Shown: piece after piece, positions 13,489-29,535 of the stretch
How the letters are laid out: the number at the start of each line of letters is the position of its first letter
Numbering within the stretch: position 1 is the first letter of the stretch
Assembly (NCBI RefSeq): GCF_003217475.1
Contig: NZ_QJSP01000004.1
Coordinates: 62,001-126,000, forward strand
From: Williamsia limnetica
GTDB taxonomy: Bacteria > Actinomycetota > Actinomycetes > Mycobacteriales > Mycobacteriaceae
Reading direction: 5' to 3'
Length of the DNA stretch: 64,000 bases
The notes under the pieces: generated by a model
What the model saw: only the letters and a program-made list of their open reading frames with translations
Database searches by the model: none
What the model was told of the DNA's origin: nothing
Position numbers and translations under genes: made by a program

Positions 13489-13551
13489 GTGATCCCCCTG
13501 TAGAGATCGGTGATCCCCCTGTAGAGATCGGTGATCCCCCGGTAGAGATTG
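13489..13551. repeat. Three direct 21-bp repeats upstream of glf
   Basis: Unit GTGATCCCCCTGTAGAGATC plus G, at 13489-13509, 13510-13530 and 13531-13551. The first two are identical and the third differs at two positions. They lie in the divergent gap between glf (minus) and the Asp-rich gene (plus). A period of two helical turns would place three sites on one face of the DNA, which suits a protein-binding array; this is inference. Confidence 0.85.
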
Positions 13552-13564
13552 GTGGCAGGCACCG

Positions 13565-13596
13565 GGGAACATTTGCCGGTGCCCGAGACTCCAATG
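13565..13596 (+). promoter_or_regulatory. ECF-type promoter candidate, GGGAAC-N19-TCCAATG
   Basis: GGGAAC (13565-13570), 19 bases, TCCAATG (13590-13596), ending 60 bases before the GTG of the Asp-rich gene. Two other acidic-protein genes, at 25778 and 26856, have the same hexamer, the same spacer length and TCCTATC. GGAAC is the usual -35 core of ECF sigma factors. Confidence 0.6.
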
Positions 13597-13655
13597 ATTG
13601 ACAAACACTCGTCGCACCCACGGTGCAGACGACCACCAACCGGAGGAGACGTACC

Positions 13656-13967
13656 GTGACCAGCCCCGATGACCAGCTCGACTCGATCTTTTCGCAGATC
13701 GGTGCCGAGGACCAGGTCGACCCGGCGGTCTTCGACCAGACCCTCGAAGCCGCATTCGACTACGCAGGTGCCGGACTCGACGAGCTGATCCCCGACGACT
13801 CCGACAGCGCCACCGACTCCGATGGTGACGGAGATGACCTTCTCGGCGGTGATCTCGAGGATGCATTCGATGACTCGGGCGAGCTGGATACCAGCGACTC
13901 GGACACCACCGACTACACCGACCACACCGGCGACGACTACGCACCCGCCGACGACATCGACATCTGA
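13656..13967 (+). CDS. Small Asp-rich protein of unknown function
   Basis: A 103-residue, extremely acidic protein with no signal peptide or membrane segment. The first half (DQLDSIFSQIGAEDQVDP, then FDQTLEAAFDYAGAG) looks helical. The second half is an Asp/Ser/Thr tail containing DSDGDGDD, which could bind cations. GGAGGA stands six bases before the GTG at 13656, which fixes the start. It has no recognised family. Its upstream GGGAAC-N19-TCCAATG element is shared with the DxDxDG genes at 25.8-27.2 kb, so it probably belongs to the same response. A strong palindrome follows the stop codon. Confidence 0.65.
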   Translation: MTSPDDQLDSIFSQIGAEDQVDPAVFDQTLEAAFDYAGAGLDELIPDDSDSATDSDGDGDDLLGGDLEDAFDDSGELDTSDSDTTDYTDHTGDDYAPADDIDI

Positions 13968-13975
13968 TCCCCGAT

Positions 13976-14030
13976 TTTGGTGGGTTGTGGCGGCCTTGAC
14001 CTGGGGCTTTACTCGCCAGAACCCACCAAA
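13976..14030. terminator. Convergent-gene palindrome, copy A
   Basis: Arms 13976-13992 (TTTGGTGGGTTGTGGCG) and 14014-14030, matching at 16 of 17 positions, between two genes that end facing each other. The element is clearly homologous to the one at 33684-33734, so it is a repeated bidirectional terminator-like sequence rather than a chance hairpin. Confidence 0.7.
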
Positions 14031-14045
14031 TTCGGGAGCCGGAGG

Positions 14046-14537
14046 TCAGCGGAGGTGGTCGATCAGGACGTCGGGGTTGCCCTGGGACCAGATGGTGACG
14101 ATGGTCAGGCGCTTGATCCGCCAGGTCTGACCGTCGCGCACCAGCACGGCGTCGTATTTGTTGCCCATCATCACCTGGTCGGTCGTCGTCCTGGAGGGCC
14201 CTTCGCCAGGCCGGTAGTGCTGGGCCATGGCGTAGCAGTTGAGTCGCGCGGTGTCGCCGTCGACGTGAACGCGGAAGTTCGACAGCGCATGCATCGTGTC
14301 CAGTGGGCCCATGGACATCAGCAGCATGCCCACCACCGACTCCCGGCCCTCGATGGCGGGGAATCCACTCTGTTCGTCGCCGACCCGGCTGACGTCGAAC
14401 AGGATGTCCTCGGTGAAGGCCGATTCCAGGATCTCCTTGTCACCGGCATCAAGGCCGAACGCGAAGCGGATCAGCGCATCGGCCGGGTCGGCGGTGGGAG
14501 GTATGACATCGAGCGCGACGGGTATGTCGTCAGGCAT
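14046..14537 (-). CDS. SnoaL/NTF2-like protein coupled to an ECF sigma factor
   Basis: A 163-residue protein of the NTF2-like superfamily (SnoaL type). Seen: DPADALIRFAFGLDAGDKE at the start, ILFDVSRVG, a conserved GRESVVGMLL and a C-terminal WRIKRLTIVTIWSQGN strand, the usual alpha+beta cone layout. Such domains bind small molecules or act as cyclases or hydratases. No catalytic residues can be assigned with certainty. Its start lies 8 bases inside the end of the sigma factor gene, so translation is coupled. In several ECF groups a SnoaL-like domain is fused to the sigma factor C-terminus and controls it; here the same domain may act in trans, which is inference. Confidence 0.75.
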   Translation of the reverse strand: MPDDIPVALDVIPPTADPADALIRFAFGLDAGDKEILESAFTEDILFDVSRVGDEQSGFPAIEGRESVVGMLLMSMGPLDTMHALSNFRVHVDGDTARLNCYAMAQHYRPGEGPSRTTTDQVMMGNKYDAVLVRDGQTWRIKRLTIVTIWSQGNPDVLIDHLR

Positions 14538-15045
14538 CTTGCAGAATCTCCAGCAGTTTGGCGCGAGCCCGGTTGATCCGGCTTTTCACAGTTTGCACGC
14601 CCACCCCCTGCTGGTCTGCGATTTCCTGATACGAGAGGTCACCGAACTCGCGGAGCACGATCGCTTCCCGGAATTCGATCGGCAGAGCGCTCAGCGCGGC
14701 CCGTACCCGCGCCACATCGGTGACCTGGGCATCGATCCGGGGTGCGTTCGACTCGAACTCGGGAGGCCCGTCGGCGGAGGTGTCCAGGCGCTTGCGGATG
14801 ACACCGAGCGCGGCGTTGGACGCGATCCGGTACATCCAGCTCGTGAACTTCGAATCACCACGAAACTTGCCGATGTTCTGCCAGCCGGCGATCAGCGCGT
14901 CCTGCAGCGCATCCTCTGCGTCGTACTTGTTGGCGGTGATCCGTAGACAGATCGCCCAGATCTGATCACGGTTACGGGTGACGAGTTCTCCGAACGCTGC
15001 TCGGTCGCCCTCTTGGCTCCGCAGGACGAGTTCGCGCTCGCTCAT
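14530..15045 (-). CDS. ECF-subfamily RNA polymerase sigma factor
   Basis: A 171-residue sigma-70 family protein with only regions 2 and 4. Region 2: ELVTRNRDQIWAICLRI and DAEDALQDALIAGW, then GKFRGDSKFTSWMYRIASN. Region 4: LPIEFREAIVLREFGDLSYQ and the helix-turn-helix VGVQTVKSRINRARAKL. The ATG at 15045 gives MSERELVLRSQEGDRAAFGE, a typical ECF start; the longer frame to 15192 is Arg-rich non-conserved sequence. No anti-sigma gene is adjacent, and the overlapping SnoaL-like gene is the likely partner. A GGAAC-N18-TCT element 45 bases upstream could be its own promoter. It diverges from the iniA-like gene. Confidence 0.9.
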   Translation of the reverse strand: MSERELVLRSQEGDRAAFGELVTRNRDQIWAICLRITANKYDAEDALQDALIAGWQNIGKFRGDSKFTSWMYRIASNAALGVIRKRLDTSADGPPEFESNAPRIDAQVTDVARVRAALSALPIEFREAIVLREFGDLSYQEIADQQGVGVQTVKSRINRARAKLLEILQDA

Positions 15046-15084
15046 GTCAGTCACTCGATAAATGTCGCAGATGGCAGGGGATGC

Positions 15085-15114
15085 GGCAGAGTAATCGGCA
15101 GCGAAACCGTTCCA
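15085..15114 (-). promoter_or_regulatory. Possible autoregulatory ECF promoter
   Basis: On the minus strand, TGGAAC (15114-15109), 18 bases, then TCTGCC (15090-15085), 45 bases before the sigma factor ATG. It resembles the GGGAAC-N19-TCC elements of the acidic genes with a spacer one base shorter. A weak but plausible match. Confidence 0.4.
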
Positions 15115-15137
15115 TCGACTGACCCTGAGAGGGAGAA

Positions 15138-17027
15138 GTGACCGCAGGTGCCACCGCCGATGCGGCGCAAGCGCTCGCCACCGCGTCCGCAACGCTCCGC
15201 AAGTTCGGCCAGGCCAAGGCAGCGGACCTGGCCGATGCCCGGTTCCACGCCGCCGACACCGCGGGCGCCATCGTCTTCGTCGGTGAGGTCAAGCGGGGCA
15301 AGAGCACGTTGGTCAACGCGCTCATCGGCACGCCCGACCTGGCACCGGTGGGTGTCGACATCACGACCAGTGCCAGCGTCTGGTTCGCACCGCCGGACGA
15401 CACCTTGCCCGCGGGGTCGGCCCGGCTGGTCTACCCCGACTCCACCGAGGTCATCGAGGCAGCAGAGTTGTCCGACTGGGTGACGATGGACGGGCGACAC
15501 GTCCAGGATCCGACCGTGCAGGCACTGCCCACCGAAGCCGTTGTCGCGGTCGACGCGCTGCACCTGCCAGGTCTGACGTTGGTGGACACCCCCGGCGCGG
15601 GCGGTCTCGACCCGCGGCATGCCCGGCTCGCGCTGACCGCCGCGCGCCGGGCCGGCGCCATCGTGATGGTCTGCGACAGCGCAGCGCCACTGACGGCGCC
15701 TGAGATCGAGTTCTTGCGGACCGCGACCGAGACGTCCGGGTCGGTGGTCGTCGCGATGACGAAGATCGACAAGAACCGCCGCCACTGGCGCACCATCGCC
15801 GAGGAGAACCGCTCGATCGTGCGCAGCAGGCTCGGCCGTACGGTCGAGGTGATCGGGGTGTCGGGCGTCCGGGCGTTGACCGCGCTCGAGCAACCGGATG
15901 ACCTGCGTGAGGAGATCCTCACCGCCTCGGGCATTCCCGCGCTGCGAGATGCCATCGACGCGCTCCTGGAGAATGCCGAGATCGCCCCGATGCTCGACGG
16001 ACTTCAGGTGTGTCACAGCGGTATGCACCGGATGAGGGAACGACTCGAGACGGAAATCGCAGTGGTGCAGGGCAACTCGTCAGCCCTCGACGACCTGGCC
16101 GAGAAGAAGGCGGCGCTCAAGGCACTGCGTGAGCACGGGACCGAGTGGGATCAACACCTCTCTCGCGACATCACCCTGGCCCGCCAGCGTGCGGTCTCGG
16201 TGCTCGATACCGATTTCAACAAGATCAAAGAGGACTGGAGCGAGCGCATCAACGGCGAGGGCTGGCGGATCCTGCGCAAGCAACCGCAGGTGTTCACCGC
16301 CGCCATCATGTCGGACCTGCAGGCCGCGACGGCGCGCGCGTTCGAGAGCTTCTCCGCGTCGCTGCACGACATCGTCTCCCGACTGTTCGACGATGACGAG
16401 CACTGGGAGGACATCATGGACGCCGTGGCCGCCGCGATGGTCGCCGAAGACATCAATTCCCCTGAAGTGCAACGCCGATGGAAAGACGTCGTCGATCCCA
16501 GCGCCCTGATGATGGGCTTCATGGGTGCCAACCTGCTGACCGGCGGCATGGTCGGCGGCGCCATCTTCGGCAGCCTTGCAATGGCCGCGGTGTTACCCAT
16601 CGGTCTCGTCGCCGGCGGGGTCTGGTTGTCGGTCAATCTCGGTTACCGGGCCATGCGCAACGGTCGGCAGCACCTGATCACCTGGCTGCGAGAAACCCTG
16701 TCCCTGGCCAACAAATCGACGTTGCGCGTGATCGATCGGACCGTCGCGACCGCGCGTCCCGAGATCGTCGTGGCCTACCGCCGGCATCTGCGCGCTCAGA
16801 CCGACGTGATCACCGATCAGATCAACGCCGGGGCCGAGGCAGCGAAAGAGGACAAGGTGACCCGCGACAAGCGGATCCGAGGACTCAGCAGGAGACTGGC
16901 CGAGATCGTCTCCATCATCGAGCAACTCGACGCCGCGATCACCGGCCTCACAGCAGACGCCCGGTCCCACGGGCCGCTGTCGTTGGGCAAGGATCCCGTC
17001 CTCGACGCCCCGGAGCCCCCTCGGTGA
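15138..17027 (+). CDS. iniA: Dynamin-like GTPase, IniA type
   Basis: A 629-residue bacterial dynamin-like protein. GTPase motifs: P-loop GEVKRGKST (49-57), switch-like DITTSASVW, G3 DTPGAGG (150) and G4 TKID (207). A long helical region follows. A Gly-rich hydrophobic hairpin at about 455-495 (MGFMGANLLTGGMVGGA and AVLPIGLVAGGVWLSV) would insert into or tubulate membrane. IniA of M. tuberculosis (640 residues) is induced by cell-wall inhibitors and can remodel membranes. The GTG start has GAGGGAGA just upstream. The gene overlaps iniC by four bases (GTGA). No IniB-like gene is adjacent; instead it diverges from an ECF sigma gene. Confidence 0.85.
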   Translation: MTAGATADAAQALATASATLRKFGQAKAADLADARFHAADTAGAIVFVGEVKRGKSTLVNALIGTPDLAPVGVDITTSASVWFAPPDDTLPAGSARLVYPDSTEVIEAAELSDWVTMDGRHVQDPTVQALPTEAVVAVDALHLPGLTLVDTPGAGGLDPRHARLALTAARRAGAIVMVCDSAAPLTAPEIEFLRTATETSGSVVVAMTKIDKNRRHWRTIAEENRSIVRSRLGRTVEVIGVSGVRALTALEQPDDLREEILTASGIPALRDAIDALLENAEIAPMLDGLQVCHSGMHRMRERLETEIAVVQGNSSALDDLAEKKAALKALREHGTEWDQHLSRDITLARQRAVSVLDTDFNKIKEDWSERINGEGWRILRKQPQVFTAAIMSDLQAATARAFESFSASLHDIVSRLFDDDEHWEDIMDAVAAAMVAEDINSPEVQRRWKDVVDPSALMMGFMGANLLTGGMVGGAIFGSLAMAAVLPIGLVAGGVWLSVNLGYRAMRNGRQHLITWLRETLSLANKSTLRVIDRTVATARPEIVVAYRRHLRAQTDVITDQINAGAEAAKEDKVTRDKRIRGLSRRLAEIVSIIEQLDAAITGLTADARSHGPLSLGKDPVLDAPEPPR

Positions 17028-18454
17028 GCCAGCCCACCCGGCGGACCCGGCCCCACGCCCTGCGTGATCAGCTGACCGGCGCGCTTGCCGAGATAGCCCG
17101 GATCGACCGCCCTCTGGCCCGCAGTACCGCGCAGATCAGGGACGCACTCTGGGCCCCTCCCCGAGTCGTGGTGGTCGGGCGCGTGAAGGCGGGCAAATCG
17201 ACCCTGGTCAATGCCCTCATCGGAGATCGGGTCGCCGACACCGCAGCCACCGAATGCACCAAGGTGGTTGCGGTCTACCAAGATGGCGCACCATCGCGGG
17301 CTGAGGTCGTCAAGATCGGCGGTGCCCGGCACAGCGTCCGCCTCACCGACGGCCGCGCCACCGAACTCGACTGCCCCACAGATGAAGTGGCCTATCTCGA
17401 TCGCTTCCTGCCCAGCCGGCTGCTCCGGAGCATGGTGCTGATCGACACCCCTGGTCTGGCGACCATCACCACGGGCAACGAACAGGCGACCAGACGTGCG
17501 CTGATCGATGGGTACGGCCAGACCCGGGATGCGTCGGTGAATGCCGATGCCGCGATCTTCCTGTTCGACGCGACCCCACGGGCCGACGAGGTGGAGTTCC
17601 TCCACGATCTCGGTTTCTCCGCCGTGAACACGATCGGCGCTCTGGCGAAGGCGGACACGCTCGGCGAGGGCGCCTTTGGCGACGACGACCCGCTCGTGCA
17701 AGCACGCGCCCAGTCCGAGAAGATCGCCGGAGCGATGTCTGCCGCGCTGCTGACTGTGCAGCCCGTCGCCGGACTACTCGCGCAGACGGCACAGACCGGA
17801 CAGTTCACCGAAGCCGATGCCGACGCACTCGCTGCGTTGGCGGGTCTGTCCGACATGCACCTCGAGCTCTGGCTCGAGGCGCAAACACCGTCGATCGGCA
17901 CCGCGGCCGAACGTGACCGGCTGCTCGATCTGCTGGGCGAGTACGGACTACGCCACGCACGGGCCGTCGCATCCCAGGGCGCCCACGCGGTCAACGCCTG
18001 GCTTCAGCAGCGCTCGGGCGTGGACGAGCTGCGCCACAACATCGACGTCAACCTGACCAGATCCGTGTTGATCACCAGAGCCGTTTCGACCTGCACGCAG
18101 ATCGAGCACCTCGCTCTGACGCACCCTGCAGGCGGCAGGATCCGATCGATCCTGCGACAGGTGCGTCAGACCCCACAGGCGCACACGATGGCTGAGTTCA
18201 AGGCACTGCACTCGCTGACCCGCACCGACCCCGAGTCGCCCTGGGTCGGTGAACTCAGGCAGGTACTCGTGGGTTCCGGCATCACGGGCCGGATCGGGCT
18301 GCCCGCCGGGGCGGACCGGGGCGTCGTCGCCGCCGAACTCGACCAGCGGCTGCGCCGGGTCCACGAGGCCGGGTTGCTGGGCGGGTCCGCCGCCGAAGAG
18401 CAGGCGGTCGCGGTCCTGCTGCACACCTATTCGATGATGCGCCGTTCGATCTGA
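17024..18454 (+). CDS. iniC: Dynamin-like GTPase, IniC type
   Basis: A 476-residue dynamin-family GTPase, the smaller partner of the preceding gene and close to mycobacterial IniC in length (about 490). Seen: P-loop VGRVKAGKST (51-60), a switch region TAATECTKVV, and G3 DTPGLAT (141-147). A following AKADTLGEG takes the place of a TKxD-type G4. The rest is helical with no obvious membrane hairpin. The GTG overlaps the iniA stop, so the two are made together and may form a heteromeric machine. The open frame continues upstream to 16478, but that part is a shadow of iniA. Confidence 0.85.
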   Translation: MSQPTRRTRPHALRDQLTGALAEIARIDRPLARSTAQIRDALWAPPRVVVVGRVKAGKSTLVNALIGDRVADTAATECTKVVAVYQDGAPSRAEVVKIGGARHSVRLTDGRATELDCPTDEVAYLDRFLPSRLLRSMVLIDTPGLATITTGNEQATRRALIDGYGQTRDASVNADAAIFLFDATPRADEVEFLHDLGFSAVNTIGALAKADTLGEGAFGDDDPLVQARAQSEKIAGAMSAALLTVQPVAGLLAQTAQTGQFTEADADALAALAGLSDMHLELWLEAQTPSIGTAAERDRLLDLLGEYGLRHARAVASQGAHAVNAWLQQRSGVDELRHNIDVNLTRSVLITRAVSTCTQIEHLALTHPAGGRIRSILRQVRQTPQAHTMAEFKALHSLTRTDPESPWVGELRQVLVGSGITGRIGLPAGADRGVVAAELDQRLRRVHEAGLLGGSAAEEQAVAVLLHTYSMMRRSI

Positions 18455-18456
18455 TT

Positions 18457-18528
18457 CGCAAACGCGCCAGATATACGGACACGCGCCAGAACCAGGTGTT
18501 GCACCTTCGCAATTCTGGCGCGTTTGCG
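18457..18528. repeat. Long palindrome between iniC and the next gene
   Basis: A perfect 15-bp inverted repeat, CGCAAACGCGCCAGA (18457-18471) and its complement (18514-18528). Inside is a second CGCGCCAGA, so the half-site is doubled. It starts 3 bases after the iniC stop and probably terminates its mRNA. Its layout resembles the element at 56696-56763. Confidence 0.75.
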
Positions 18529-18541
18529 GGATAGTTCGGTC

Positions 18542-19294
18542 ATGGATTACGCAGCCGCTCTCCTCGAACAGACCCGACTTCTCGGTGAGGTCATCCGCGC
18601 GGCGGACCCCACCCTGCCGGTACCGACCTGCCCTGAATGGACCATGCAGCAACTGTTCCGGCATGTCGGACGGGGCGATCGCTGGGCCGCACAGATCGTC
18701 GCCGAGAAGGCCGACGGCCCACGAGACCCTCGGCAGGTACCGGACGGGAAACCTCCGGCGGACATCGACGGCGCGATCGAGTGGTTCCACGGTGGCGTCC
18801 GTACCTTGCTCGACGCGGTCGAGGCGACCGGGCCAGACACTCCCGTGTGGACGTTTGTCGGCCCCCGCCCTGCGGCCTGGTGGATCCGCCGGCGCCTACA
18901 CGAGAGCACGGTGCACCGGGCAGACGCAGAACTCGCGTCAGGGCTCGAGTTCACGATATCGCCAGAGTTGGCCGCCGACTGCATCTCCGAGTGGTTCGCC
19001 CTCTTCGCCGCGGAGCCACCCGGACGACGCACTCCCCCGCTCGACGATCCGAACACCCTGCACCTACACGCGGCCGAGAAGGATCTCGGCTCCGCGGGCG
19101 AGTGGTTTCTCCGGCGTGACGGCGACGCGCTCACCGTCGACCACTCTCACGCCAAGGCGACGACCGCCGTGCGCGGTCGATCGGTGGATCTGATGCTCGC
19201 GCTGACTCGCAGACGCCCGACCGAGGACGCCGGTGTCGAGATCATCGGAGACGCTGGCGTCTGGAACACCTGGCTCGACCGCACCGGCTTCTGA
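18542..19294 (+). CDS. Maleylpyruvate isomerase-family mycothiol-dependent enzyme
   Basis: A 250-residue protein of the DinB-like mycothiol-dependent family. Seen: the N-terminal helix bundle with CPEWTMQQLFRHVGRGDRW near residue 35, a region with WWIRRRLHESTVHRADAEL near residue 120 supplying metal-ligand-like histidines, and a C-terminal domain with RGRSVDLMLALTRRRP. In characterised members a metal and mycothiol support isomerisation or thiol transfer; the substrate here is unknown. The ATG at 18542 begins MDYAAALLEQTRLLGE. It ends 3 bases before the convergent stop of the next gene, so there is no room for a separate terminator. Confidence 0.8.
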   Translation: MDYAAALLEQTRLLGEVIRAADPTLPVPTCPEWTMQQLFRHVGRGDRWAAQIVAEKADGPRDPRQVPDGKPPADIDGAIEWFHGGVRTLLDAVEATGPDTPVWTFVGPRPAAWWIRRRLHESTVHRADAELASGLEFTISPELAADCISEWFALFAAEPPGRRTPPLDDPNTLHLHAAEKDLGSAGEWFLRRDGDALTVDHSHAKATTAVRGRSVDLMLALTRRRPTEDAGVEIIGDAGVWNTWLDRTGF

Positions 19295-19297
19295 TCG

Positions 19298-20272
19298 TCA
19301 CGGCAGGGACCAGAACACCGTCGTGCAGAGGAAGAACACCGCGATCCAGAAGATGTTGACGCCGACGATGATCGCCCAGCCCCGGCTGTTCGTCCATGAC
19401 TGTGTGCGGTCTTCTCGCGGCCACAGCCAGATCTTGAGGAGCTTGTTCACGTAATAGGGCATCGTGAAGTAGCTCATCACGAAGCTCGAGATCAGGTTAC
19501 CGATCAGCAAGCCCAGCCACAGCGGCATCTCAAGCGGCGACAAGGCGAGGGTCAACAGCACGACGGTCGGATACAGACCCACCCAGACCGCGATTGAGGT
19601 CTTGAAATCCGACGGCGGTGGAGCCTCGTTCCCCTTGTCGTCGAAGGCGAACCAGCTCCCGAACGAATTGTCGATGGTGCGGAGTTCGAAGTCGTCGAAC
19701 TTCTTGCCCTCGTCGAGCAGCGCTGTGCGCTCCGGCGAGGTGAGCCACGCGTCGAGATCGGCGGCGCTGTTGTACCGGTAGAGCGCTGTCCACTCGTCCT
19801 GCAGACCCTCGATCGGACGGAACAACTCGGTGCCGCGGAAACCGGCGAAGGAGGTCTCGGCCTCCCGGAGGCGTCCCTGCCAGTCCAGAAAGTCCTCGAC
19901 GTGCTCGGGTTTGACCCGATGGGTGACGACGACCGTCACCAGTGCGTCGGTCGGCTGCGATCCCCCACTGATCACCTGCTGGGTGGCCGGTCCGTCGAAA
20001 TAGTCGCGTCCGAGATCGAGATGCTCTTGGCGTGTCGAACTGTTGATCCAGGCCTGCACATTGGAGATCGAATCGAAGCGGTAGACGACGACCCAGTCGG
20101 GCTGGACATTGGTCGGCTGCGCGGTTTCGGCGGCGATGAAACCCGGATACTTCGCCGCCGCGGCATTCATGTTGTCCTGCCAGATCGCGAAGGCGGACTC
20201 CGCTCCCGGCCGGACCTTCTGACCGATGATCACCGTGGCGGCGTTGTTGGTGGTCGTCGTCTCGGCGCTCAT
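19298..20272 (-). CDS. Membrane protein with two ABM-like (monooxygenase-fold) domains
   Basis: A 324-residue protein with two copies of an antibiotic-biosynthesis-monooxygenase-like ferredoxin fold. Copy one, about 12-100, contains AAKYPGFIAAET and YRFDSISNVQAWI. Copy two, about 112-205, contains AETSFAGFRGTELF and YRYNSAADLDAWL. They are followed by three or four membrane helices (AVWVGLYPTVVLLTLALS, LWLGLLIGNLISSFVMSYF, GWAIIVGVNIFWIAVFFL). The ABM fold often acts in heme or quinone chemistry or as a dimeric sensor. Here a duplicated ABM pair is tethered to the membrane facing the cytoplasm. The start is the second ATG (20272): GTAGGAG would touch the first one. It follows the xanthine-dehydrogenase-like genes and may be co-transcribed with them. 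Confidence 0.75.
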   Translation of the reverse strand: MSAETTTTNNAATVIIGQKVRPGAESAFAIWQDNMNAAAAKYPGFIAAETAQPTNVQPDWVVVYRFDSISNVQAWINSSTRQEHLDLGRDYFDGPATQQVISGGSQPTDALVTVVVTHRVKPEHVEDFLDWQGRLREAETSFAGFRGTELFRPIEGLQDEWTALYRYNSAADLDAWLTSPERTALLDEGKKFDDFELRTIDNSFGSWFAFDDKGNEAPPPSDFKTSIAVWVGLYPTVVLLTLALSPLEMPLWLGLLIGNLISSFVMSYFTMPYYVNKLLKIWLWPREDRTQSWTNSRGWAIIVGVNIFWIAVFFLCTTVFWSLP

Positions 20273-20323
20273 CGCCATCTCCTACTGGTTGCGGAACGTA
20301 CGTCTGGAGGCGGTTGCGACCGC

Positions 20324-23038
20324 TCAGACGACCGGATTCTGCTGCTTGTGCAGCCTGCTGAATATACGGTCTGGGGTGAGCGGAAGCTCACGTATCCGTA
20401 CTCCCGTCGCATCGAAGAGTGCGTTGGCCATCGCCCCGGCGACCGGATTGATACAGCACTCCGCCATACCCTTGGAGCGCATCGGACCCACCGAATCCTC
20501 GGATTCCACCAGGATGACCTCCGTGCGCGGCACATCCGCGTACGTCGGGATCCGGTAGTTTCGCAGATTCGGGTTGACCATCGTCCCTGTGTGATCGACA
20601 TGGTGATCCTCGGTCAGGACGAAGCCAAGGCCCTGTGCGACACCACCTTCGATCTGCCCACGGACCTGCGCCGGGTTGATCACGACGCCCGGATCAGCGG
20701 CCTGGACGCTGTAGAGGACGCGGATCTCACCGGTGATCCTGTTGACCGCGATCCGGAAACCGTGCGTGTTGGAGGTGACGCTGCGCGGAGATCCATACGC
20801 CTTGCGCGCCTCCGTGAAGGTGATCCCCCGTGCCTTGCCTGCCGCGACCACCTCGGCCAGCGTCAGTCTCATGTCACCGCACACGACCCCGTCGTCGTCC
20901 ATCGAGCAGTCGGCCAACGGCACCCCGGCATGCGATGCCGCAAACGCAAGGATTCTCCCTCGGAGCGCGTTCGACGCGTTGAGAACAGCGTTGCCCGCGA
21001 CGAACAGTCCGGCGCTGGCGAAGGCGCCGGTGTCGAAACCCGTTCTATCGGTGTCCGATTGGATCAGTCGGATCCTGGACGGGGTGGTCCCCAGCTGATT
21101 GGCGCAGATCTGCACATGAGCGGTCGAGGTTCCCTCGCCGAACTCCACGGTACCGACCGCCAACTCGTAGACGAGATCCTCACCGAGGGTCGCCCAGGCC
21201 TCAGAGATGTGTTCGGTCGGCGGCGCGGTCTCGTGCACCGAGCTCGCAGTGCCGACGCCCACCGACCATTCGGCTCCTTCTGGCCCATCGATGGTGTTGC
21301 GCGCCAGTGCCGCATCCACGAGATCGAGACAGGCACCGAGGCCGTCCTCGCTGAACATGACGTCGTCGGGCCCATCCCCCAGCGCGATCAGTGCATCTCC
21401 GGGACGGACGATGTTGCGGCGGCGCAACTCGAGCGGATCCATGTCCAGTGCGACCGCCAACTCATGCATGGCCGATTCCACCGCGAACGACGGCTGGGTC
21501 ATCCCGTAGCCGCGCAGGGCGCCACTGGGAACGGTGTTGGTGTAGACCGAGTACGCGTCGTATCTCTTGTTGGCACAACGGTAGATCGCCACGGCCGCTC
21601 CACCGGCGAACAGTGTCTCACCGCCGTGGTTGCCGTACGCCCCGGTATTGGAGATGTTGTGGACGCTCAATGCCGTCAAGGTCCCGTCAGCCTTGGCACC
21701 GAGCTTGATGGTCAACGTCATCGGGTGTCGGGGTGAGGCGGTGCTGAACTCTTCGGTTCGAGTGAATTCGAGACTGACCGGCCTGCCGGTGTCGAGCGTC
21801 GCCAACGACACCAGGTCTTCGACGATCACCTCTTGTTTGCCACCGAATCCGCCGCCGACGCGCTTACAGAAGACGCGGAGCTGGTCCGGCCGCAGATCGA
21901 ACAGGTGGGAGAGTTTGATCTTCGCGATGGACGGTGATTGCGAACTCGTCCGGACGTTGAGCCTTCCGTTGTCCATCCACGCGACTGCGCCGTGGGTCTC
22001 CAGGTGCGCATGCTGCACGCGCGGTGAGGAATACGTGCCCTCATGGATCACGTCGGCCTCGGCGAAGCCGGCGTCGACGTCGCCGACGTGGCCGTGGATC
22101 TCCAGCAGGATGTTGTGTTCGGGGTCGCGGACGAATGGGTCATCGGAGCCGTGCAACGCGGGGGCGCCGTCTTTCATCGCCTCGACGGGGTCGAAGACGG
22201 CAGGCAGCTGCTCGTAGTCCACGGCGACCTGCCTGCAGCCTTCCTCGGCGGCCCCGATGGTGTCGGCAAGTACTGCAACCACCCGCTGGCCCACGAACCG
22301 GACGACGTTGTCGAGCATGTAGGTGTCGTCGGGGTCGACGAGGTGGTCGGTGTGGATGGCCGTCGTGTACAGCTTGCGCGGCACATCTTTCCAGGTGTAG
22401 ACGCGGTGAACGCCAGGCACCGCCAGCGCGGCACTCGTGTCGATCGACAGGATGCGCGCATGCGCGTGTGGCGAATGCAGCAGCTTCAGATGCAGCATTC
22501 CTTCCATCTGGACGTCCATCGTGTACTCGGCCCGGCCTGTCACGATGTCGCGGGCTGCAGGCGCGCCGACACTCGTGCCGACGGCCTGCCCCGGTTTCGC
22601 CTCCTCGATTTCTGCGACACCGTTCACCGCGTCTTCGATCGCGCGATACCCAGTGCACCGGCACAAGTTGCCCTTCAGCGCGCGAGGCAGGTCCTGCTTC
22701 TGCTCCTCGGTGAAGGTCGCGGCGGTCATGATCATGCCTGCGGTGCAGAAGCCGCACTGGAAACCGGGTGCGGCACAGAAGTTCTTCTGCATCGGATGCA
22801 GGCCATCGGGTGTTTCGAGCCCCTCGATGGTGGTGACCTCATGACCGTCCGCCCGGAACGCCGGGGTGATGCAGCTGTGGACTGGATCCCCGTCGAGCCA
22901 GACCGTGCAGGCGCCACAATCACCGCCGTCGCAACCCTTTTTGACGCCGTGATGACCCAGTGCCCGCATGAAGGTGCGCAGACACTGCCCGGGATCGGGT
23001 TCGGCGGAAAATGCCGTGCCGTTCACCGTGTACGTCAT
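20324..23038 (-). CDS. Fused 2Fe-2S / molybdopterin-binding subunit of a xanthine-dehydrogenase-family hydroxylase
   Basis: A 904-residue fusion. Residues 1-160 are a two-cluster 2Fe-2S unit with the plant-ferredoxin pattern CDGGDCGACTVWLDG and the second cluster CGFCTAGMI plus CRCTGY. From about 170 the molybdopterin-binding domain runs to the end (GRAEYTMDVQMEGMLHLKLL, VGGGFGGKQEVIVED, SGALRGYGMTQPSFAVE). The conserved glutamate near the C-terminus lies in SKGMAECC. The enzyme should hydroxylate an aldehyde or N-heterocycle using water, passing electrons to the FAD subunit encoded upstream. Usually these are two separate genes in actinobacteria. No Mo-cofactor sulfurase or XdhC-like gene is nearby. 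The ATGA overlap with the FAD gene shows translational coupling. The substrate is unknown. Confidence 0.88.
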   Translation of the reverse strand: MTYTVNGTAFSAEPDPGQCLRTFMRALGHHGVKKGCDGGDCGACTVWLDGDPVHSCITPAFRADGHEVTTIEGLETPDGLHPMQKNFCAAPGFQCGFCTAGMIMTAATFTEEQKQDLPRALKGNLCRCTGYRAIEDAVNGVAEIEEAKPGQAVGTSVGAPAARDIVTGRAEYTMDVQMEGMLHLKLLHSPHAHARILSIDTSAALAVPGVHRVYTWKDVPRKLYTTAIHTDHLVDPDDTYMLDNVVRFVGQRVVAVLADTIGAAEEGCRQVAVDYEQLPAVFDPVEAMKDGAPALHGSDDPFVRDPEHNILLEIHGHVGDVDAGFAEADVIHEGTYSSPRVQHAHLETHGAVAWMDNGRLNVRTSSQSPSIAKIKLSHLFDLRPDQLRVFCKRVGGGFGGKQEVIVEDLVSLATLDTGRPVSLEFTRTEEFSTASPRHPMTLTIKLGAKADGTLTALSVHNISNTGAYGNHGGETLFAGGAAVAIYRCANKRYDAYSVYTNTVPSGALRGYGMTQPSFAVESAMHELAVALDMDPLELRRRNIVRPGDALIALGDGPDDVMFSEDGLGACLDLVDAALARNTIDGPEGAEWSVGVGTASSVHETAPPTEHISEAWATLGEDLVYELAVGTVEFGEGTSTAHVQICANQLGTTPSRIRLIQSDTDRTGFDTGAFASAGLFVAGNAVLNASNALRGRILAFAASHAGVPLADCSMDDDGVVCGDMRLTLAEVVAAGKARGITFTEARKAYGSPRSVTSNTHGFRIAVNRITGEIRVLYSVQAADPGVVINPAQVRGQIEGGVAQGLGFVLTEDHHVDHTGTMVNPNLRNYRIPTYADVPRTEVILVESEDSVGPMRSKGMAECCINPVAGAMANALFDATGVRIRELPLTPDRIFSRLHKQQNPVV

Positions 23039-23859
23039 GCCACGCCGCCTGTCAGTTCGATGCGGATGTCTTCGGCGAAGTGCCGCGCGAGATGCTGCCG
23101 GTGGTCCGGTGTGCCGTTCGGATCGTCGAACCAGCTGTCGGCGGGTATCGCATCGACGGCGGCCCGCAAGTCCTCGGCGTCCGGCATCGCGTCGAAGGCC
23201 AGCCGGACCGGGTGGGTGGTTCCCGCGGTGATCGTCAGCAGCAGGTCGTCTCTGCCCGGTGTCTGCGTGGCGATCATGAACAGCGTCGACCGCCCCATCT
23301 TGGTGAGGGTGAACCGGCGATGGGTGTAGTTCTTGCGCAGCGCGGTGATCGGGATGTCGATGCGTCGCAGAATCTCACCGGGGGCAAGCACGTTCCGGTT
23401 GTTGGCGGTCACGAAGTCGACTGCGTCGACGGTGCGCTCGGTGCCGTCAGGCGCCCAGACGATGTAGGTCGCCTCCAGCGCAACCGTCATCGTGATCATC
23501 GGGCCTGCGGGCAGCGACATCACGATGTTGCCGCCCACCGTTGCCGAGTTCCAGATCTTGAACGATGCCAAGAACGCCTCGCAACTCGCGCGTAGCAGTG
23601 GCCCGACGGTCCAATCAGCCGGAGCCGCAAACGCGTAGAGCTCGCGAATGGTGCAGGTGGCCCCGATCCGCAAACCCTCGGGACCAGCGGTCAAGGTGTC
23701 CCATCCGAGTGCGGTGAGATCGACCAGCCGACGCAGACGGGGTTGTTCGTCGGAGAACAGCCAGGTTCCCCCGGCCAGCCACGCGTCGCCGTCACGCCAA
23801 TCCTGCCCGGGCCGATCGGACGGATTCCGGATCAGCTCGGTGACCGTGTTGATATCCAT
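23035..23859 (-). CDS. FAD-binding subunit of the xanthine-dehydrogenase-family hydroxylase
   Basis: A 274-residue subunit of the CoxM/XdhB type. Seen: the FAD-binding AGGTWLFSDEQ near residue 30, GLRIGATCTIRELYAF near residue 60, and FKIWNSATVGGNIVMSLPAG near residue 100, the last being the standard isoalloxazine-contact motif. A C-terminal CO-dehydrogenase-flavoprotein domain follows. It carries electrons from the iron-sulfur/molybdenum subunit to an acceptor. The start at 23859 (MDINTVTELIRNP) has GAGGGAGA seven bases before it; the longer frame to 23889 lacks a site. It overlaps the next gene by ATGA. Confidence 0.88.
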   Translation of the reverse strand: MDINTVTELIRNPSDRPGQDWRDGDAWLAGGTWLFSDEQPRLRRLVDLTALGWDTLTAGPEGLRIGATCTIRELYAFAAPADWTVGPLLRASCEAFLASFKIWNSATVGGNIVMSLPAGPMITMTVALEATYIVWAPDGTERTVDAVDFVTANNRNVLAPGEILRRIDIPITALRKNYTHRRFTLTKMGRSTLFMIATQTPGRDDLLLTITAGTTHPVRLAFDAMPDAEDLRAAVDAIPADSWFDDPNGTPDHRQHLARHFAEDIRIELTGGVA

Positions 23860-24051
23860 GAAGTTGTCTCCCTCGGCAGCAGGTGCCACGGCGCGGGCGA
23901 ACCGAACCCGACGTCTGGCGGCACTCCTGCGGGGCGGTCCGAAGAGCTGGACGCGAAGTTCGTGGCGGGAGTAAATCTACGTGACCTGCGACCCCACCGT
24001 GAGGTTTCAGGGCAAACGTCACCGGGGTCGCGGCGCGGAACGGGGAGCGAT

Positions 24052-25617
24052 TCAGCGCACTCGCGACCGCAGGACGTTCTTCTGGATCTTTCCGGTCGAG
24101 GTCTTCGGGAGATCGGTGAACACGATCTCCTTCGGGACCTTGAAACGCGCGAGACGTGTTCTGGCGAAATCGATCAACTCAGCCGCGCTCAGATCACGGC
24201 CCGAACGGATCGTCACGTAGCCGACCGGCACCTCGCCCCATCGATCGTCGGGCCGCCCGACGACAGCCGATTCCACGACGTCGGGGTGGGCATCGAGCAC
24301 TCGTTCCACCTCGACGGAGGCAATGTTCTCACCGCCGGAGATGATGACGTCCTTGCTGCGGTCCCTCAGTTCGACGTAACCGTCGGGATGCATCACCGCG
24401 AGATCACCGGTCCGTAGGCACCCGTCCACCGTGGCCGCGGCTGTCGCGTCCGGGTCCCGGTAGTAGCCCAGCATCACGTCGTTTCCGCTGACCACCAACT
24501 CTCCCATGGTCTTTCCGTCGGCAGGTACATCGAGACCCTCCGGCGTCACCACCCGTGCAGGTCGCGCGACGATGTTCCCGATCCCCTGCCGGGCCTTGAG
24601 AACCGATATCTCGTCCGGGCCGGCTCCATCCCACTCCGGCTGCCACTGGTTGACCATGATGGGCCCGAACGTCTCGGTCATCCCGTACAGATGCGTCACT
24701 TCAAAACCCAGTCGAGACATCCGGGAGAGCAGCGCGGGTGAGGGCGGAGCTCCGCCGGTGCCCACCGCCACCGTGCGCTCGAGTGCCGCCCCCGCGGGAT
24801 CCTCGGCGATCATCGTCAGCACCGTCGGCGCCGCACTGAGGTGGGTGACGCCACCATCGCGCAACAGACGCCAGATCTCTGCGGTGTCGATGGACCGTAG
24901 ACAGACGTGGGTACCCCCGGCCGCGGTGACCGCCCAGGTGAAACACCAGCCGTCGCAATGAAACATCGGCAACGTCCACAGGTAATTCGATGCCGGCTCC
25001 AGCCGGGAATGGTAGGCCATCGCCACGGCCTGCAGGTACGCCCCGCGGTGGTGATACATCACCCCTTTGGGCCGCCCGGTGGTTCCCGACGTGTAATTGA
25101 TGGCGAGCAGCCCACGCTCCCGGGGCTCATGCAGCACCGGCGCCGGCGCGTCCGCCAGTCGCTGTTCGTAGTCACCACCGCCACCGGCGAGTACCCAGCC
25201 GATGCCGGCCGCCCCTGCGACTGCGGCAGCCGTGTCGGCGAACTCCTGCGTCGCGAACAAGATCGTCGCGCCGCTGTGCTTGAGGATGTAGCTGATCTCG
25301 GGGACCGAGAGCCTGGTGTTCAAGGGCACCAGGACAGAACCGTGCAACGGGATCGCGCTGTGTAATTCGAGCATCACATGACTGTTCGCGCACAACGCCG
25401 CCACCCGGTCGCCGGGCCGGACACCCGCTGCGTCGAGAAGTCCGGTGAGCTGGAGTACGCGACGGTGGAACTCGGCGTAGGTGAACGAGAGGTCGCCGTC
25501 GACGATCGCGGTCCGCCCGGCGAAGGCCTGGGCTGCGCGAGTGAGGAAAGCCCCGGGTGACAGCGGAGCGAACGTGAACGGACCCGCCTCTGGGTCCCCG
25601 ATGTCGTTCGATGTCAT
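24052..25617 (-). CDS. Acyl-CoA synthetase / AMP-binding ligase (FadD type)
   Basis: A 521-residue adenylate-forming ligase. Seen: P-loop-like YTSGTTGRPKGVMYHHRG at about 175, the aromatic-Gly motif HLYGMTETFGP at about 310, LRTGDLAVMHPDGYVELRDR with the hinge aspartate at about 405, and the C-terminal lysine in PKTSTGKIQKN. It should activate a carboxylic acid as a CoA thioester. The chain length or ring type cannot be read from sequence; the tight coupling of related genes to redox enzymes suggests an aromatic or fatty acid. It diverges from the DxDxDG cassette and lies about 190 bases upstream of the FAD-subunit gene, so a shared transcript is possible. Confidence 0.85.
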   Translation of the reverse strand: MTSNDIGDPEAGPFTFAPLSPGAFLTRAAQAFAGRTAIVDGDLSFTYAEFHRRVLQLTGLLDAAGVRPGDRVAALCANSHVMLELHSAIPLHGSVLVPLNTRLSVPEISYILKHSGATILFATQEFADTAAAVAGAAGIGWVLAGGGGDYEQRLADAPAPVLHEPRERGLLAINYTSGTTGRPKGVMYHHRGAYLQAVAMAYHSRLEPASNYLWTLPMFHCDGWCFTWAVTAAGGTHVCLRSIDTAEIWRLLRDGGVTHLSAAPTVLTMIAEDPAGAALERTVAVGTGGAPPSPALLSRMSRLGFEVTHLYGMTETFGPIMVNQWQPEWDGAGPDEISVLKARQGIGNIVARPARVVTPEGLDVPADGKTMGELVVSGNDVMLGYYRDPDATAAATVDGCLRTGDLAVMHPDGYVELRDRSKDVIISGGENIASVEVERVLDAHPDVVESAVVGRPDDRWGEVPVGYVTIRSGRDLSAAELIDFARTRLARFKVPKEIVFTDLPKTSTGKIQKNVLRSRVR

Positions 25618-25691
25618 CGCACTCCACTTCCTGCTCGTCTCCGTAGCCCAATGCTATTGGCCGAAACTTTTTCGAAGATTTCTCGGCCCCC

Positions 25692-25723
25692 GGGAACTTT
25701 GTGAGGTCGGCGCCCCTCCTATC
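25692..25723 (+). promoter_or_regulatory. ECF-type promoter candidate, GGGAAC-N19-TCCTATC
   Basis: GGGAAC (25692-25697), exactly 19 bases, TCCTATC (25717-25723), 55 bases before the ATG of the first DxDxDG gene. It is nearly the same as the element at 26781-26812, and the sequence just downstream (CCACAAC...GGCCA against TGCAACC...CGCCA) is also alike, so promoter and leader were duplicated with the gene. Confidence 0.65.
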
Positions 25724-25777
25724 CACAACAACCGGCCACCACAGCTTGCGGCCAACCCCAACGAACAAGGAGAAACC

Positions 25778-26179
25778 ATGTCTGACAACACGATGCCCGA
25801 GATCTCTGAAGACGCCACCGTCCTGGACATCCTCGACGTGGACGGCGACGGAACCGAAGAGTCCGCGCTCGTCGACATCGACGCCGATGGCAAAGGCGAC
25901 GTCATGGTGCAGGACTACGACCAAGACGGTGAAGCCGAATCCATCGCCTTCGACACCGACGGTGACAACCACTACGAGACCGCCGTCTCCGACACCGATC
26001 AGGACGGCGAGGCAGACACCGTCTACTTCGACGAGAATGCCGACGGCACCCACGACATCGCCTTCGTCGACGACGACCAGGACGGCGAGATCGACAGCGC
26101 CTATGTCAATGACGGCACCGGCGAATGGACCGAGATCGACCCCGCGAGCGTCGAGACCCCCGACACCAGCGCCCTGTAG
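25778..26179 (+). CDS. DxDxDG-repeat acidic protein 1
   Basis: A 133-residue cytosol-type protein (no signal peptide or membrane segment) built from about seven 12-13-residue repeats with an Asp-rich loop: DVDGDGTEE, DIDADGKGD, DYDQDGEAE, DTDGDNHYE, DTDQDGEAD, DENADGTHD and DDDQDGEID. The DxDxDG core resembles EF-hand, dockerin and thrombospondin type-3 calcium loops, so calcium binding is likely but unproven. The repeats are separated by short hydrophobic strands such as SALVDI and VMVQDY. It ends GTGEWTEIDPASVE, shared with the next paralog. AAGGAGA lies five bases before the ATG. It is the first gene of a three-paralog cassette leading to a membrane Hsp70. Confidence 0.7.
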   Translation: MSDNTMPEISEDATVLDILDVDGDGTEESALVDIDADGKGDVMVQDYDQDGEAESIAFDTDGDNHYETAVSDTDQDGEADTVYFDENADGTHDIAFVDDDQDGEIDSAYVNDGTGEWTEIDPASVETPDTSAL

Positions 26180-26363
26180 AACCGCCCCCGACCAGACATC
26201 GGAGACCGCGTCGACACCTCACCGGGTGCCGGCGCGGTCTGGCCGTCGTGTGCGGTGCTCTGCGTAACTTTTCTCGGATTCGCACGCGCGTTTCGCGCAA
26301 CCGGAGTGTGCTGTCACCAGAGCTGCGCGCCACGACGGCGGGCACCGAGTCCAAGGAGCCCCG

Positions 26364-26753
26364 ATGACCGATCCCACCAATCCCGAGCCCACTGACGCGG
26401 CAATTGTCGAGATCTTCGACAACGACGGCGACGGCGTCGTCGATTCGGCCCTGGTCGATGTCGACGGCGACGGCGACGGCGACGTCGTGGCCTCCGATGC
26501 CGACCAGGACGGCGCCATCGACACCCTCTCCTACGACACCGACGGCGACAACTACTTCGAGACCGCGGCGGTGGACTCCGACGGCGACGGCATCGCCGAC
26601 ACCGTCTTGGTCGACGAAGACGCCGACGGCAATGCCGACGTCGCATTCGTGGACGTCGACCAGGATGGCGACATCGACAATGCTTACGTGAACGACCCCG
26701 CGACCGGCGAATGGACCGAGGTCGACCCCGGCTCGGGCGACAGCGTCGTCTGA
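26364..26753 (+). CDS. DxDxDG-repeat acidic protein 2
   Basis: A 129-residue paralog of the preceding protein, with the same loop-strand repeat plan: DNDGDGVVD, DVDGDGDGD, DADQDGAID, DTDGDNYFE, DSDGDGIAD, DEDADGNAD and DVDQDGDID. It has the same C-terminal TGEWTEVDPG. There is no export signal. AAGGAG lies five bases before the ATG. Unlike its neighbours it has no clear GGGAAC element upstream, only a loose GCGTAAC at 26262-26268, so it may depend on readthrough from the first gene. Function unknown; a calcium-dependent folding or sensing role is suggested by the loops. Confidence 0.7.
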   Translation: MTDPTNPEPTDAAIVEIFDNDGDGVVDSALVDVDGDGDGDVVASDADQDGAIDTLSYDTDGDNYFETAAVDSDGDGIADTVLVDEDADGNADVAFVDVDQDGDIDNAYVNDPATGEWTEVDPGSGDSVV

Positions 26754-26780
26754 CCGACCGACACCGAAAGGACCATCTGC

Positions 26781-26812
26781 GGGAACATTTCAGCCCCGGC
26801 TGCCCTCCTATC
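26781..26812 (+). promoter_or_regulatory. ECF-type promoter candidate, GGGAAC-N19-TCCTATC (second copy)
   Basis: GGGAAC (26781-26786), 19 bases, TCCTATC (26806-26812), 44 bases before the third DxDxDG gene. Hexamer, spacer length and -10-like heptamer are identical to the copy at 25692 although the spacer sequence differs, as expected for two independently maintained sites of one sigma factor. Confidence 0.65.
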
Positions 26813-26855
26813 TGCAACCAACTCGCCATCGCAGAGCCACCGAGGAGCACCGATC

Positions 26856-27221
26856 ATGTCCGATTCCGTAACGTCCGACCCTTCGACCACCGAAACTCCT
26901 GACACGACCGAAACCGCAGGCCCCACAGTCATCGAGTACGCCGACTTCGATGGCAACGGATATGACGAGTCCGTCCTGCTCGACACCGACGGGGACGGTG
27001 CCGGCGACACGATCGTCCAGGACTTCACCGAGGACGGCGAGGTCGAGACCATTGCCTACGACGCCGATGGCGACGGTTTCAGCGAGACGAGCATGTCCGA
27101 CCTCGACCAGGACGGGACCGCGGACACGGTGTTCGCAGACATCGACCAGGACGGGTCCCACGACTTCGTACTGTCCGACGTCGATCAGAACGGCATCCCC
27201 GACGGGTTCGGGCTGCTCTAG
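26856..27221 (+). CDS. DxDxDG-repeat acidic protein 3
   Basis: A 121-residue member of the cassette. After an acidic Thr-rich lead (TETPDTTETAGP) it has about six repeats: DFDGNGYDE, DTDGDGAGD, DFTEDGEVE, DADGDGFSE, DLDQDGTAD, DIDQDGSHD and a final DVDQNGIPDG. It ends FGLL and lacks the GEWTE tail of the other two. No signal peptide. GAGGAG stands five to seven bases before the ATG. It has its own GGGAAC promoter candidate and lies 156 bases before the Hsp70-like gene, with no terminator between, so that promoter probably drives both. Confidence 0.7.
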   Translation: MSDSVTSDPSTTETPDTTETAGPTVIEYADFDGNGYDESVLLDTDGDGAGDTIVQDFTEDGEVETIAYDADGDGFSETSMSDLDQDGTADTVFADIDQDGSHDFVLSDVDQNGIPDGFGLL

Positions 27222-27377
27222 CCGGCCGGCCGGCGTCCGCCCGCAGGACAGGTCGGCTGCCGTCAGCGTCAGCATGAACTACGTTGGCCACGCACCAACT
27301 ACGTGGCAGCGGCCTGCTCCCGTCGCCACCCCTGGCTCAACCGAACGACTCACCACAAGACGAAAGGAACCACACCG

Positions 27378-29420: not shown

Positions 29421-29481
29421 GGTGGTCGTCGGCGATTGTCTGCGCGCCGCGTTCAGCACCAGATTCATCCCCTGACGGCAC

Positions 29482-29506
29482 CGCCGAGGGAGCATCGCCC
29501 TCGGCG
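29482..29506. terminator. Hairpin between convergent Hsp70 and SpoIID genes
   Basis: A perfect 9-bp stem, CGCCGAGGG (29482-29490) and CCCTCGGCG (29498-29506), with a 7-base loop and no U-tract, in the gap between two convergent genes. Confidence 0.5.
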
Positions 29507-29535
29507 CCATCCCACGGGACAGGATGTGGTGCGGA

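Follow-up and report, generated by a model that had tools for sequence, protein, structure and literature searches.

Three copies of a two-part sequence element, GGGAAC-N19-TCCWAT, lie in a 64,000-nucleotide stretch of the Williamsia limnetica genome (contig NZ_QJSP01000004.1, positions 62,001 to 126,000; hereafter the window), each a short distance upstream of a gene for an acidic protein. This raises the question of whether the element is a promoter and, if so, which sigma factor reads it. A first-pass annotation had proposed that an extracytoplasmic function (ECF) sigma factor, perhaps the one encoded at 14530-15045, controls a regulon of acidic loop proteins and a membrane Hsp70. We conclude that the element is real, that it is in all likelihood an ECF-type promoter, and that the ECF factor of 14530-15045 most probably reads it, an interpretation of the sequence to which we assign a probability of about 0.88. 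The elements, the genes that follow them, and the candidate reader are listed here, with sizes in amino acids (aa) and distances in nucleotides (nt).

13565..13596, + strand: candidate promoter element 1, GGGAACATTT-N15-CTCCAATG, 60 nt before the GTG at 13656
13656..13967, + strand: small acidic partner protein, 103 aa with 35 aspartates and glutamates (D+E) and no K, R or C; beside the ECF gene
14530..15045, - strand: ECF sigma factor, 171 aa (Pfam Sigma70_r2 3e-16, Sigma70_r4_2 7e-16)
25692..25723, + strand: candidate promoter element 2, 55 nt before the ATG at 25778
25778..26179, + strand: Asp-rich DxDxDG repeat protein, 133 aa, behind element 2 (FG-GAP_3 E = 0.0023, below cut-off)
26781..26812, + strand: candidate promoter element 3, 44 nt before the ATG at 26856
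26856..27221, + strand: Asp-rich DxDxDG repeat protein, 121 aa, behind element 3, with predicted 13-residue beta repeats

The three elements, with their equal spacers and their placement 44 to 60 bases before start codons, are where the first-pass annotation had put them. GGGAAC-N19-TCCWAT occurs on the + strand at 13565-13595, 25692-25722, and 26781-26811, followed by G, C, and C, respectively, and its right half is TCCAAT at 13565 and TCCTAT at 25692 and 26781; distances to the start codon count the bases between the final T of TCCWAT and that codon. Shuffling the window 100 times, with spacers of 17 to 21 allowed, gave a mean of 0.01 matches against the 3 found, so chance is excluded. A site at 4910 with two mismatches was not counted as a fourth element; it is antisense to, and within, a 617-aa reading frame (3346-5199) that resembles an esterase by eye, and it probably arises by coincidence from the coding sequence. 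Among ECF promoters, GGAAC is a frequent -35 core.

A genome-wide search of the kind the first-pass annotation had suggested turned up further sites, three of them before DxDxDG genes. The 6.35-Mb draft assembly (52 contigs, labelled C1 and so on) contains five matches to GGGAAC/TCCWAT with a spacer of 19 bases and six with spacers of 18 to 20, compared with one for the reversed pattern that served as control. The fourth clear match (C20:72618) lies ahead of a gene encoding an Asp-rich 72-aa protein built of DTNADG/DTDGDG repeats. In the fifth (C13, GGGAACCGG...) GGGAAC is not followed by TT, and the gene behind it is unrelated and, by eye, PE/WXG-like. The sixth (C16, spacer 18) falls inside a coding frame. 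Allowing one mismatch added three matches: C3:266051 and C5:33288 (TCTTAT and TCTTAC sites) lie ahead of further DxDxDG genes of 72 and 71 aa, and C5:334769 does not fit. When the genome was searched in reverse with the 71-aa DxDxDG protein, nine stretches matched, recovering three DxDxDG genes outside the window, the window's own three, and one broken copy on C16. Outside the window, each of the three full-length DxDxDG genes recovered has the element ahead of it; at the locus of the fourth outside copy (L216, G000:C16:107655), which has an internal stop, the element pattern finds nothing.

The element also recurs in relatives. All nine Williamsia genomes searched carry it (38 matches versus 1 for the reversed control). 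We read 31 Williamsia sites, assigning names to the genes behind them by eye, and 22 precede genes with at least 24% D+E: members of the 13656 family, DxDxDG genes, a 72-aa protein, and a C39-peptidase-like acidic protein. The other nine comprise four sites before cytochrome-b5/desaturase-like genes, one before a small Tyr/Ser-rich protein gene, two before PE/WXG-like genes, one antisense in a frame, and one with no convincing gene. For most sites read, the start codon follows at 30 to 63 nt. Eight orthologous Williamsia promoters share 96% identity in the elements and 66% in the spacers. Element 1 also precedes the orthologous gene in nine other Williamsia loci inspected, two of which are identical, and an ortholog of the ECF gene lies beside that gene in the genus loci seen; the window's ECF factor is 98% identical to that of Williamsia sp. 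1135. Sites corresponding to element 2 are followed by the orthologous gene in Williamsia genomes G004, G006, and G007, which also hold sites related to element 3 about 1.1 kb away from element 2, and CGGAAC variants of element 2 occur in G001, G002, G003, G005, and G008, with the downstream gene checked in G001 and G008.

Several of these Williamsia sites have features of their own. Three 21-base tandem repeats (GTGATCCCCCTGTAGAGATCG) occupy 13489-13554 and end 10 bases 5' of element 1; no such repeats were seen in the nine other Williamsia loci inspected. One good element (L034, G001:C5:205522) has no acidic gene behind it, but a hairpin and a T run can be made out by eye about 100 nt downstream, and it may mark a small RNA or a lost gene. 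In two Williamsia genomes (L004 and L042), GGGAACCGG...TAGGCGTCCWAT stands before a gene that is PE/WXG-like by eye; these sites (GGGAACCGG...GCGTCCWAT) lack TT, were excluded as regulon members, and perhaps represent a related promoter class.

We examined how far the element extends through the family using a strict form, GGGAACWTT-N16-TCCWAT, and a sample of 301 genomes drawn evenly from the family. Fourteen genomes contained it and none contained the control pattern; these were all nine genomes of the genus (32 matches) and 5 of the 292 others (one match each), where two of the sites precede Asp-rich or Asp/Gly-rich genes and three precede unplaced genes. Orthologs of the ECF factor, defined by E ≤ 1e-38 with at most 11 candidates scored per genome, were found in 71 of the 301. 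The strict element was present in 14 of the 71 genomes with an ortholog and in none of the 230 without (p = 6e-10), in 5/62 versus 0/230 when Williamsia was left out (p = 4e-4), and in 6/15 versus 0/16 when counted by genus (p = 0.007), although these p values overstate independence because the genomes are related. A matched test used 40 genomes, hand-picked and not blind, from six genera with both ortholog-bearing and ortholog-free members, and a relaxed element, GGGAACHTT-N16/17-TCYHAY. This form occurred in 16 of 21 genomes with an ortholog (35 matches) and 3 of 19 without (3 matches; p = 2e-4; control, 0/40). Ten of the 21 were already known to carry a site before they were chosen; among the remaining genomes the counts were 6/11 and 3/19 (p = 0.04).

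A scan of named genomes gave at least 80 ECF loci, of which the first 29 (at least 48% identity over the best segment) were taken as orthologs, with 3.6-20.5 kb of sequence examined per locus, and the other 51 as comparison; in a tree the orthologs form one clade with support of 99/97 (42 rows, some of them duplicates, including the window sequence and further orthologs). Among the matches listed, the relaxed element gave 34 matches in 18 of the 29 ortholog loci and 2 in 2 of the 51 others, a tighter form gave 25 matches in 12/29 and none in the other 51, and the reversed control gave 0 throughout. The two matches in the comparison set (L144 10547 and L145 1498) are in metagenome-assembled genomes (MAGs) of Clostridia, with an 18-base spacer, just downstream of an unrelated ECF gene. 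When only the -35 was used as an anchor (GGGAAC(A/C/T)TT; 56 anchors in 52 ortholog loci), TCYHAY followed at 19 bases 24 times, at 20 bases 8 times, and elsewhere twice, so it is the spacing, not the spacer, that is conserved far beyond the window.

Positive autoregulation is expected of many ECF factors, and in 12 of the 52 ortholog loci (two of them apparent second copies, L190 of L110 and L200 of L112) a same-strand element precedes the ECF gene by no more than 1.6 kb, which, as far as sequence can indicate, is what such autoregulation would look like. The genera include Corynebacterium (C. xerosis), Aldersonia, Rhodococcus, Gordonia, and others, and in 10 of the 12 an acidic family gene lies between or overlaps that upstream stretch. 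In the window's own genome no element stands ahead of the sigma gene, and we rejected direct autoregulation there. In G016 (L080/L102, G016:C1:2025011-2025463) the ECF ortholog is broken by two stops, and no site scoring at least 12 was found in the surrounding 19.5 kb; this is possibly the decay of the whole switch.

Could a different protein read the element? The alternative that survives best, though we think it improbable, is that another of the genome's ECF sigma factors does so and the adjacent gene is a passenger of the cluster. Sigma region 2 is present in 19 genes of the genome, any GGAAC core is common property among ECF promoters, and the sigma gene lacks a site of its own here; yet across the sigma loci of the genome (L007-L025) only the 14530 locus has a site whose score (29.6) approaches those of the true elements (next best, 10.0 and 8.2), and the element tracks the 14530 ortholog across genera, precedes its operon in some, and is nearly absent near the 51 other ECF genes. 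Still less likely by some way is a binding site for a DNA-binding activator or repressor in place of a sigma promoter. It would account for a spacer that is long for an ECF promoter when counted from GGAAC and for TCCWAT in place of CGT, but the halves show no dyad or direct repeat, their near-fixed spacing and position 30 to 63 nt before most start codons read fit a promoter, and the element co-occurs with an ECF factor. That the sites are functionless remnants, duplicated from a single ancestral acidic gene with its leader, is very improbable, paralogous as the Asp-rich genes are, given that elements are so much better conserved than spacers and also precede unrelated genes, for the acidic partner, Hsp70-like, and dynamin-like proteins.

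Control by the ECF factor of 14530-15045 is thus the reading we keep, and the first-pass proposal of that factor is supported by its co-occurrence with the element, by the sites around its orthologs, and by those ahead of the sigma operon elsewhere. Several observations weigh against it. The strict element is missing from 57 of the 71 genomes with an ortholog, and even the relaxed element is missing from 5 of the 21 matched genomes with one and, among the matches listed, from the stretch examined in 11 of the 29 ortholog loci; conversely, 3 of 19 ortholog-free genomes hold one relaxed match each. Some of the 34 relaxed matches around orthologs look spurious (L121, L133, L134, and L136), and the bound on candidates scored may have caused a few orthologs to be missed. 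Within the genus, matches that do not look like regulon members include an esterase-like coding match in three genomes, sites before a PE/WXG-like gene in two, four sites before a desaturase-like gene, and the G001 site with no gene behind it. The absence of an element ahead of the sigma gene in the window's genome argues in the same direction, as do the unclassical -10 (TCCWAT/TCYHAY in place of CGT) and the fact that both promoters and reader are predicted from sequence.

How does the element compare with known ECF promoters? A passage in PMC8103513 describes ECF promoters as having AAC in the -35, and an early definition as including CGT in the -10 and, as usual features, positive autoregulation and a co-transcribed anti-sigma factor, with the definition later restricted to domain make-up. 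The 171-aa window protein consists of sigma2 and sigma4 domains only (Pfam), GGGAAC supplies AAC at all three sites, if these are its promoters, and TCCWAT/TCYHAY stands where CGT would be. A passage in PMC5483222 gives GGGAACT as the -35 and CGACTA as the -10 of Sigma C of Corynebacterium glutamicum, so the -35 resembles the one described here while the -10 differs, and a title cited there ties Sigma C to the branched quinol pathway, not to acidic proteins. The best NCBIfam match of the window's ECF factor is SigM (NF007225, E = 2e-38), but at 132.2 bits against a curated cut-off of 190 it is not a member; L014, a paralog in the same genome, groups with Mycobacterium sequences in a tree.

We then considered which genes accompany the sigma factor. 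The remaining genes of the window locus are as follows.

14046..14537, - strand: SnoaL-like (SnoaL_4) gene, Pfam PF13577 E = 2e-22; overlaps the end of the ECF gene
15138..17027, + strand: dynamin-like GTPase 1 (IniA-like), Dynamin_N 2e-15; IniA 6j72 E = 7e-18, residues 32-268
17024..18454, + strand: dynamin-like GTPase 2, Dynamin_N 1.5e-10; its GTG start overlaps the stop of GTPase 1
26364..26753, + strand: Asp-rich DxDxDG repeat protein, 129 aa, with no element of its own
27378..29420, + strand: Hsp70-like protein, Pfam HSP70 1.4e-22; one strongly hydrophobic segment near residue 477

Probing the loci with the window's proteins gave, among the matches listed, dynamin-like genes in 24, Hsp70-like genes in 19, and DxDxDG genes in 19 of the 29 ortholog loci, compared with 0, 0, and 3 of the 51 other-ECF loci. 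The genera include Corynebacterium, Dietzia, Gordonia, Rhodococcus, Skermania, Hoyosella, Smaragdicoccus, Pseudonocardia, Actinoplanes, Spirilliplanes, Gulosibacter, [Zimmermannella] alba, and an Aeromicrobium MAG, and not every member of the set is present in each. Targets behind elements elsewhere include DxDxDG proteins (for example in Gulosibacter, with three in a row, Gordonia desulfuricans, and Corynebacterium xerosis), the small acidic protein, Hsp70-like proteins (Smaragdicoccus and G053), a dynamin-like protein (Rhodococcus sp. ARC_M6), and lipoprotein-like genes. The last (L094, L095, L097, L098, and L100) stand behind relaxed elements in several genera and have LDTGSYPTTP-like segments; they may be DUF7373 proteins.

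The first-pass description of the targets as acidic loop proteins holds for the products of 25778 and 26856, which are DxDxDG repeat proteins, and not for that of 13656, which is not a loop-repeat protein. The Asp-rich genes are paralogs of one another (43-50% identity). An AlphaFold2 model of the 26856 protein has regular short strands every 13 residues (predicted local distance difference test score [pLDDT] 80, predicted template modeling score [pTM] 0.63), and no solved structure matched the model at E ≤ 0.001. Neither a signal peptide nor a hydrophobic segment was seen in the DxDxDG proteins, and for this reason we predict that they would be intracellular, which is unusual for repeats of this type; that they bind calcium is a guess from the DxDxDG pattern. 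As to the membrane Hsp70 of the proposed regulon, the window gene at 27378..29420 lacks a separate element, although elements do stand before Hsp70-like genes in other genera. A terminator scan of 25600-29700 was uninformative, with three weak matches against 2.4 expected.

Two features of the locus recall known systems. The mycobacterial iniBAC operon resembles it in the pair of dynamin-like GTPases: the nearest solved structure to GTPase 1 is IniA (6j72, matched over 237 residues), while GTPase 2 has no Protein Data Bank sequence match at E ≤ 0.001. Unlike iniBAC, which is reported to be controlled by IniR (PMC5760070), the pair here is accompanied by an ECF sigma factor, an Hsp70-like protein, and Asp-rich repeats. 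An IniB-like identity for the 13656 protein, suggested by resemblance, was dropped. The SnoaL-like gene brings to mind ECF41 (SigJ), which has a fused SnoaL domain; a SnoaL-like gene adjoins the ECF gene in seven of the eight other Williamsia genomes (not in G001), but here (14046-14537) it is separate and not a C-terminal fusion, and the window's SnoaL-like probe matches, among the matches listed, in 1 of the 29 ortholog loci, a Williamsia.

The small acidic partner belongs to a family of proteins of about 100 to 185 aa with a conserved head (SLxxxLGxxx...PDDVWxxxLxxAxDPxTPxxDxxLVP) and an acidic tail, and 18 aligned members contain no cysteine and no strongly hydrophobic segment. A hidden Markov model (HMM) built from the 18 heads matched 28 of 35 ortholog loci (16 of the 28 supplied training sequences, and two, L123 and L128, are doubtful) as well as 15 of 17 additional loci, at least four of which are the same or nearly the same as training loci, making the independent figure smaller; none of the 51 other-ECF loci matched. 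The 13656 protein, itself in the training set, matches at E = 2e-11. The family lies near the ECF gene in 39 of 52 loci, most commonly just upstream on the same strand. No Pfam match was found for the members tried and no NCBIfam match for the window's member, and the structure model of the partner is of low confidence (pLDDT 65, pTM 0.28). As a tentative proposal, the partner may be an anti-sigma factor that would hold the sigma factor inactive.

Control of these promoters by the 14530-15045 factor is well supported computationally, and the sequences suggest how it might work. The sigma factor would bind the RNA polymerase core, with sigma4 reading GGGAACWTTY and sigma2 reading a -10 of (C/A)TC(C/T)(A/T)A(T/C) that lies 19 bases on, or 20 in some lineages. 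Its targets would be the gene of the acidic partner (13656), the DxDxDG genes at 25778-27221, and, outside the window, three or more additional DxDxDG genes; the Hsp70-like gene would probably be reached, at best, by read-through from 26781. Because a membrane-anchored Hsp70-like protein and two dynamin-like GTPases accompany the regulon, and because IniA is reported to remodel membranes, deforming and cutting them (PMC6715688), the regulon might, by analogy, be a membrane or envelope stress module. A fuller picture, which we regard as unlikely as a whole, would make the partner a new soluble type of anti-sigma factor, without cysteines, zinc site, or membrane segment, with a short conserved head and a long, probably disordered acidic tail that masks the DNA-binding faces of sigma as a DNA mimic. 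Sigma factor and partner would then make up a switch, widely conserved among actinobacteria, for a membrane-repair module that consists of a membrane-anchored Hsp70, paired dynamins, and intracellular beta-repeat proteins that are rich in Asp and perhaps bind calcium.

In the open-access PubMed Central literature we found no paper on this ECF clade, nor any that connects dynamin and Hsp70 genes to an ECF sigma factor or describes this promoter; in the main ECF reclassification a group number may already exist for the clade. Our best reading of the sequences is that a sigma clade with its own promoter and regulon recurs, the three together, in other actinobacteria. The acidic family, associated with one sigma clade and lacking a Pfam or NCBIfam match, may represent a new type of regulator of sigma factors. 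For a widespread set of genes that the literature searched had not connected, namely the dynamin pair, the membrane Hsp70, and the Asp-rich repeats, the analysis yields a promoter code, names a candidate sigma factor, and lists the genes, and the induction and function of the set are now directly testable.

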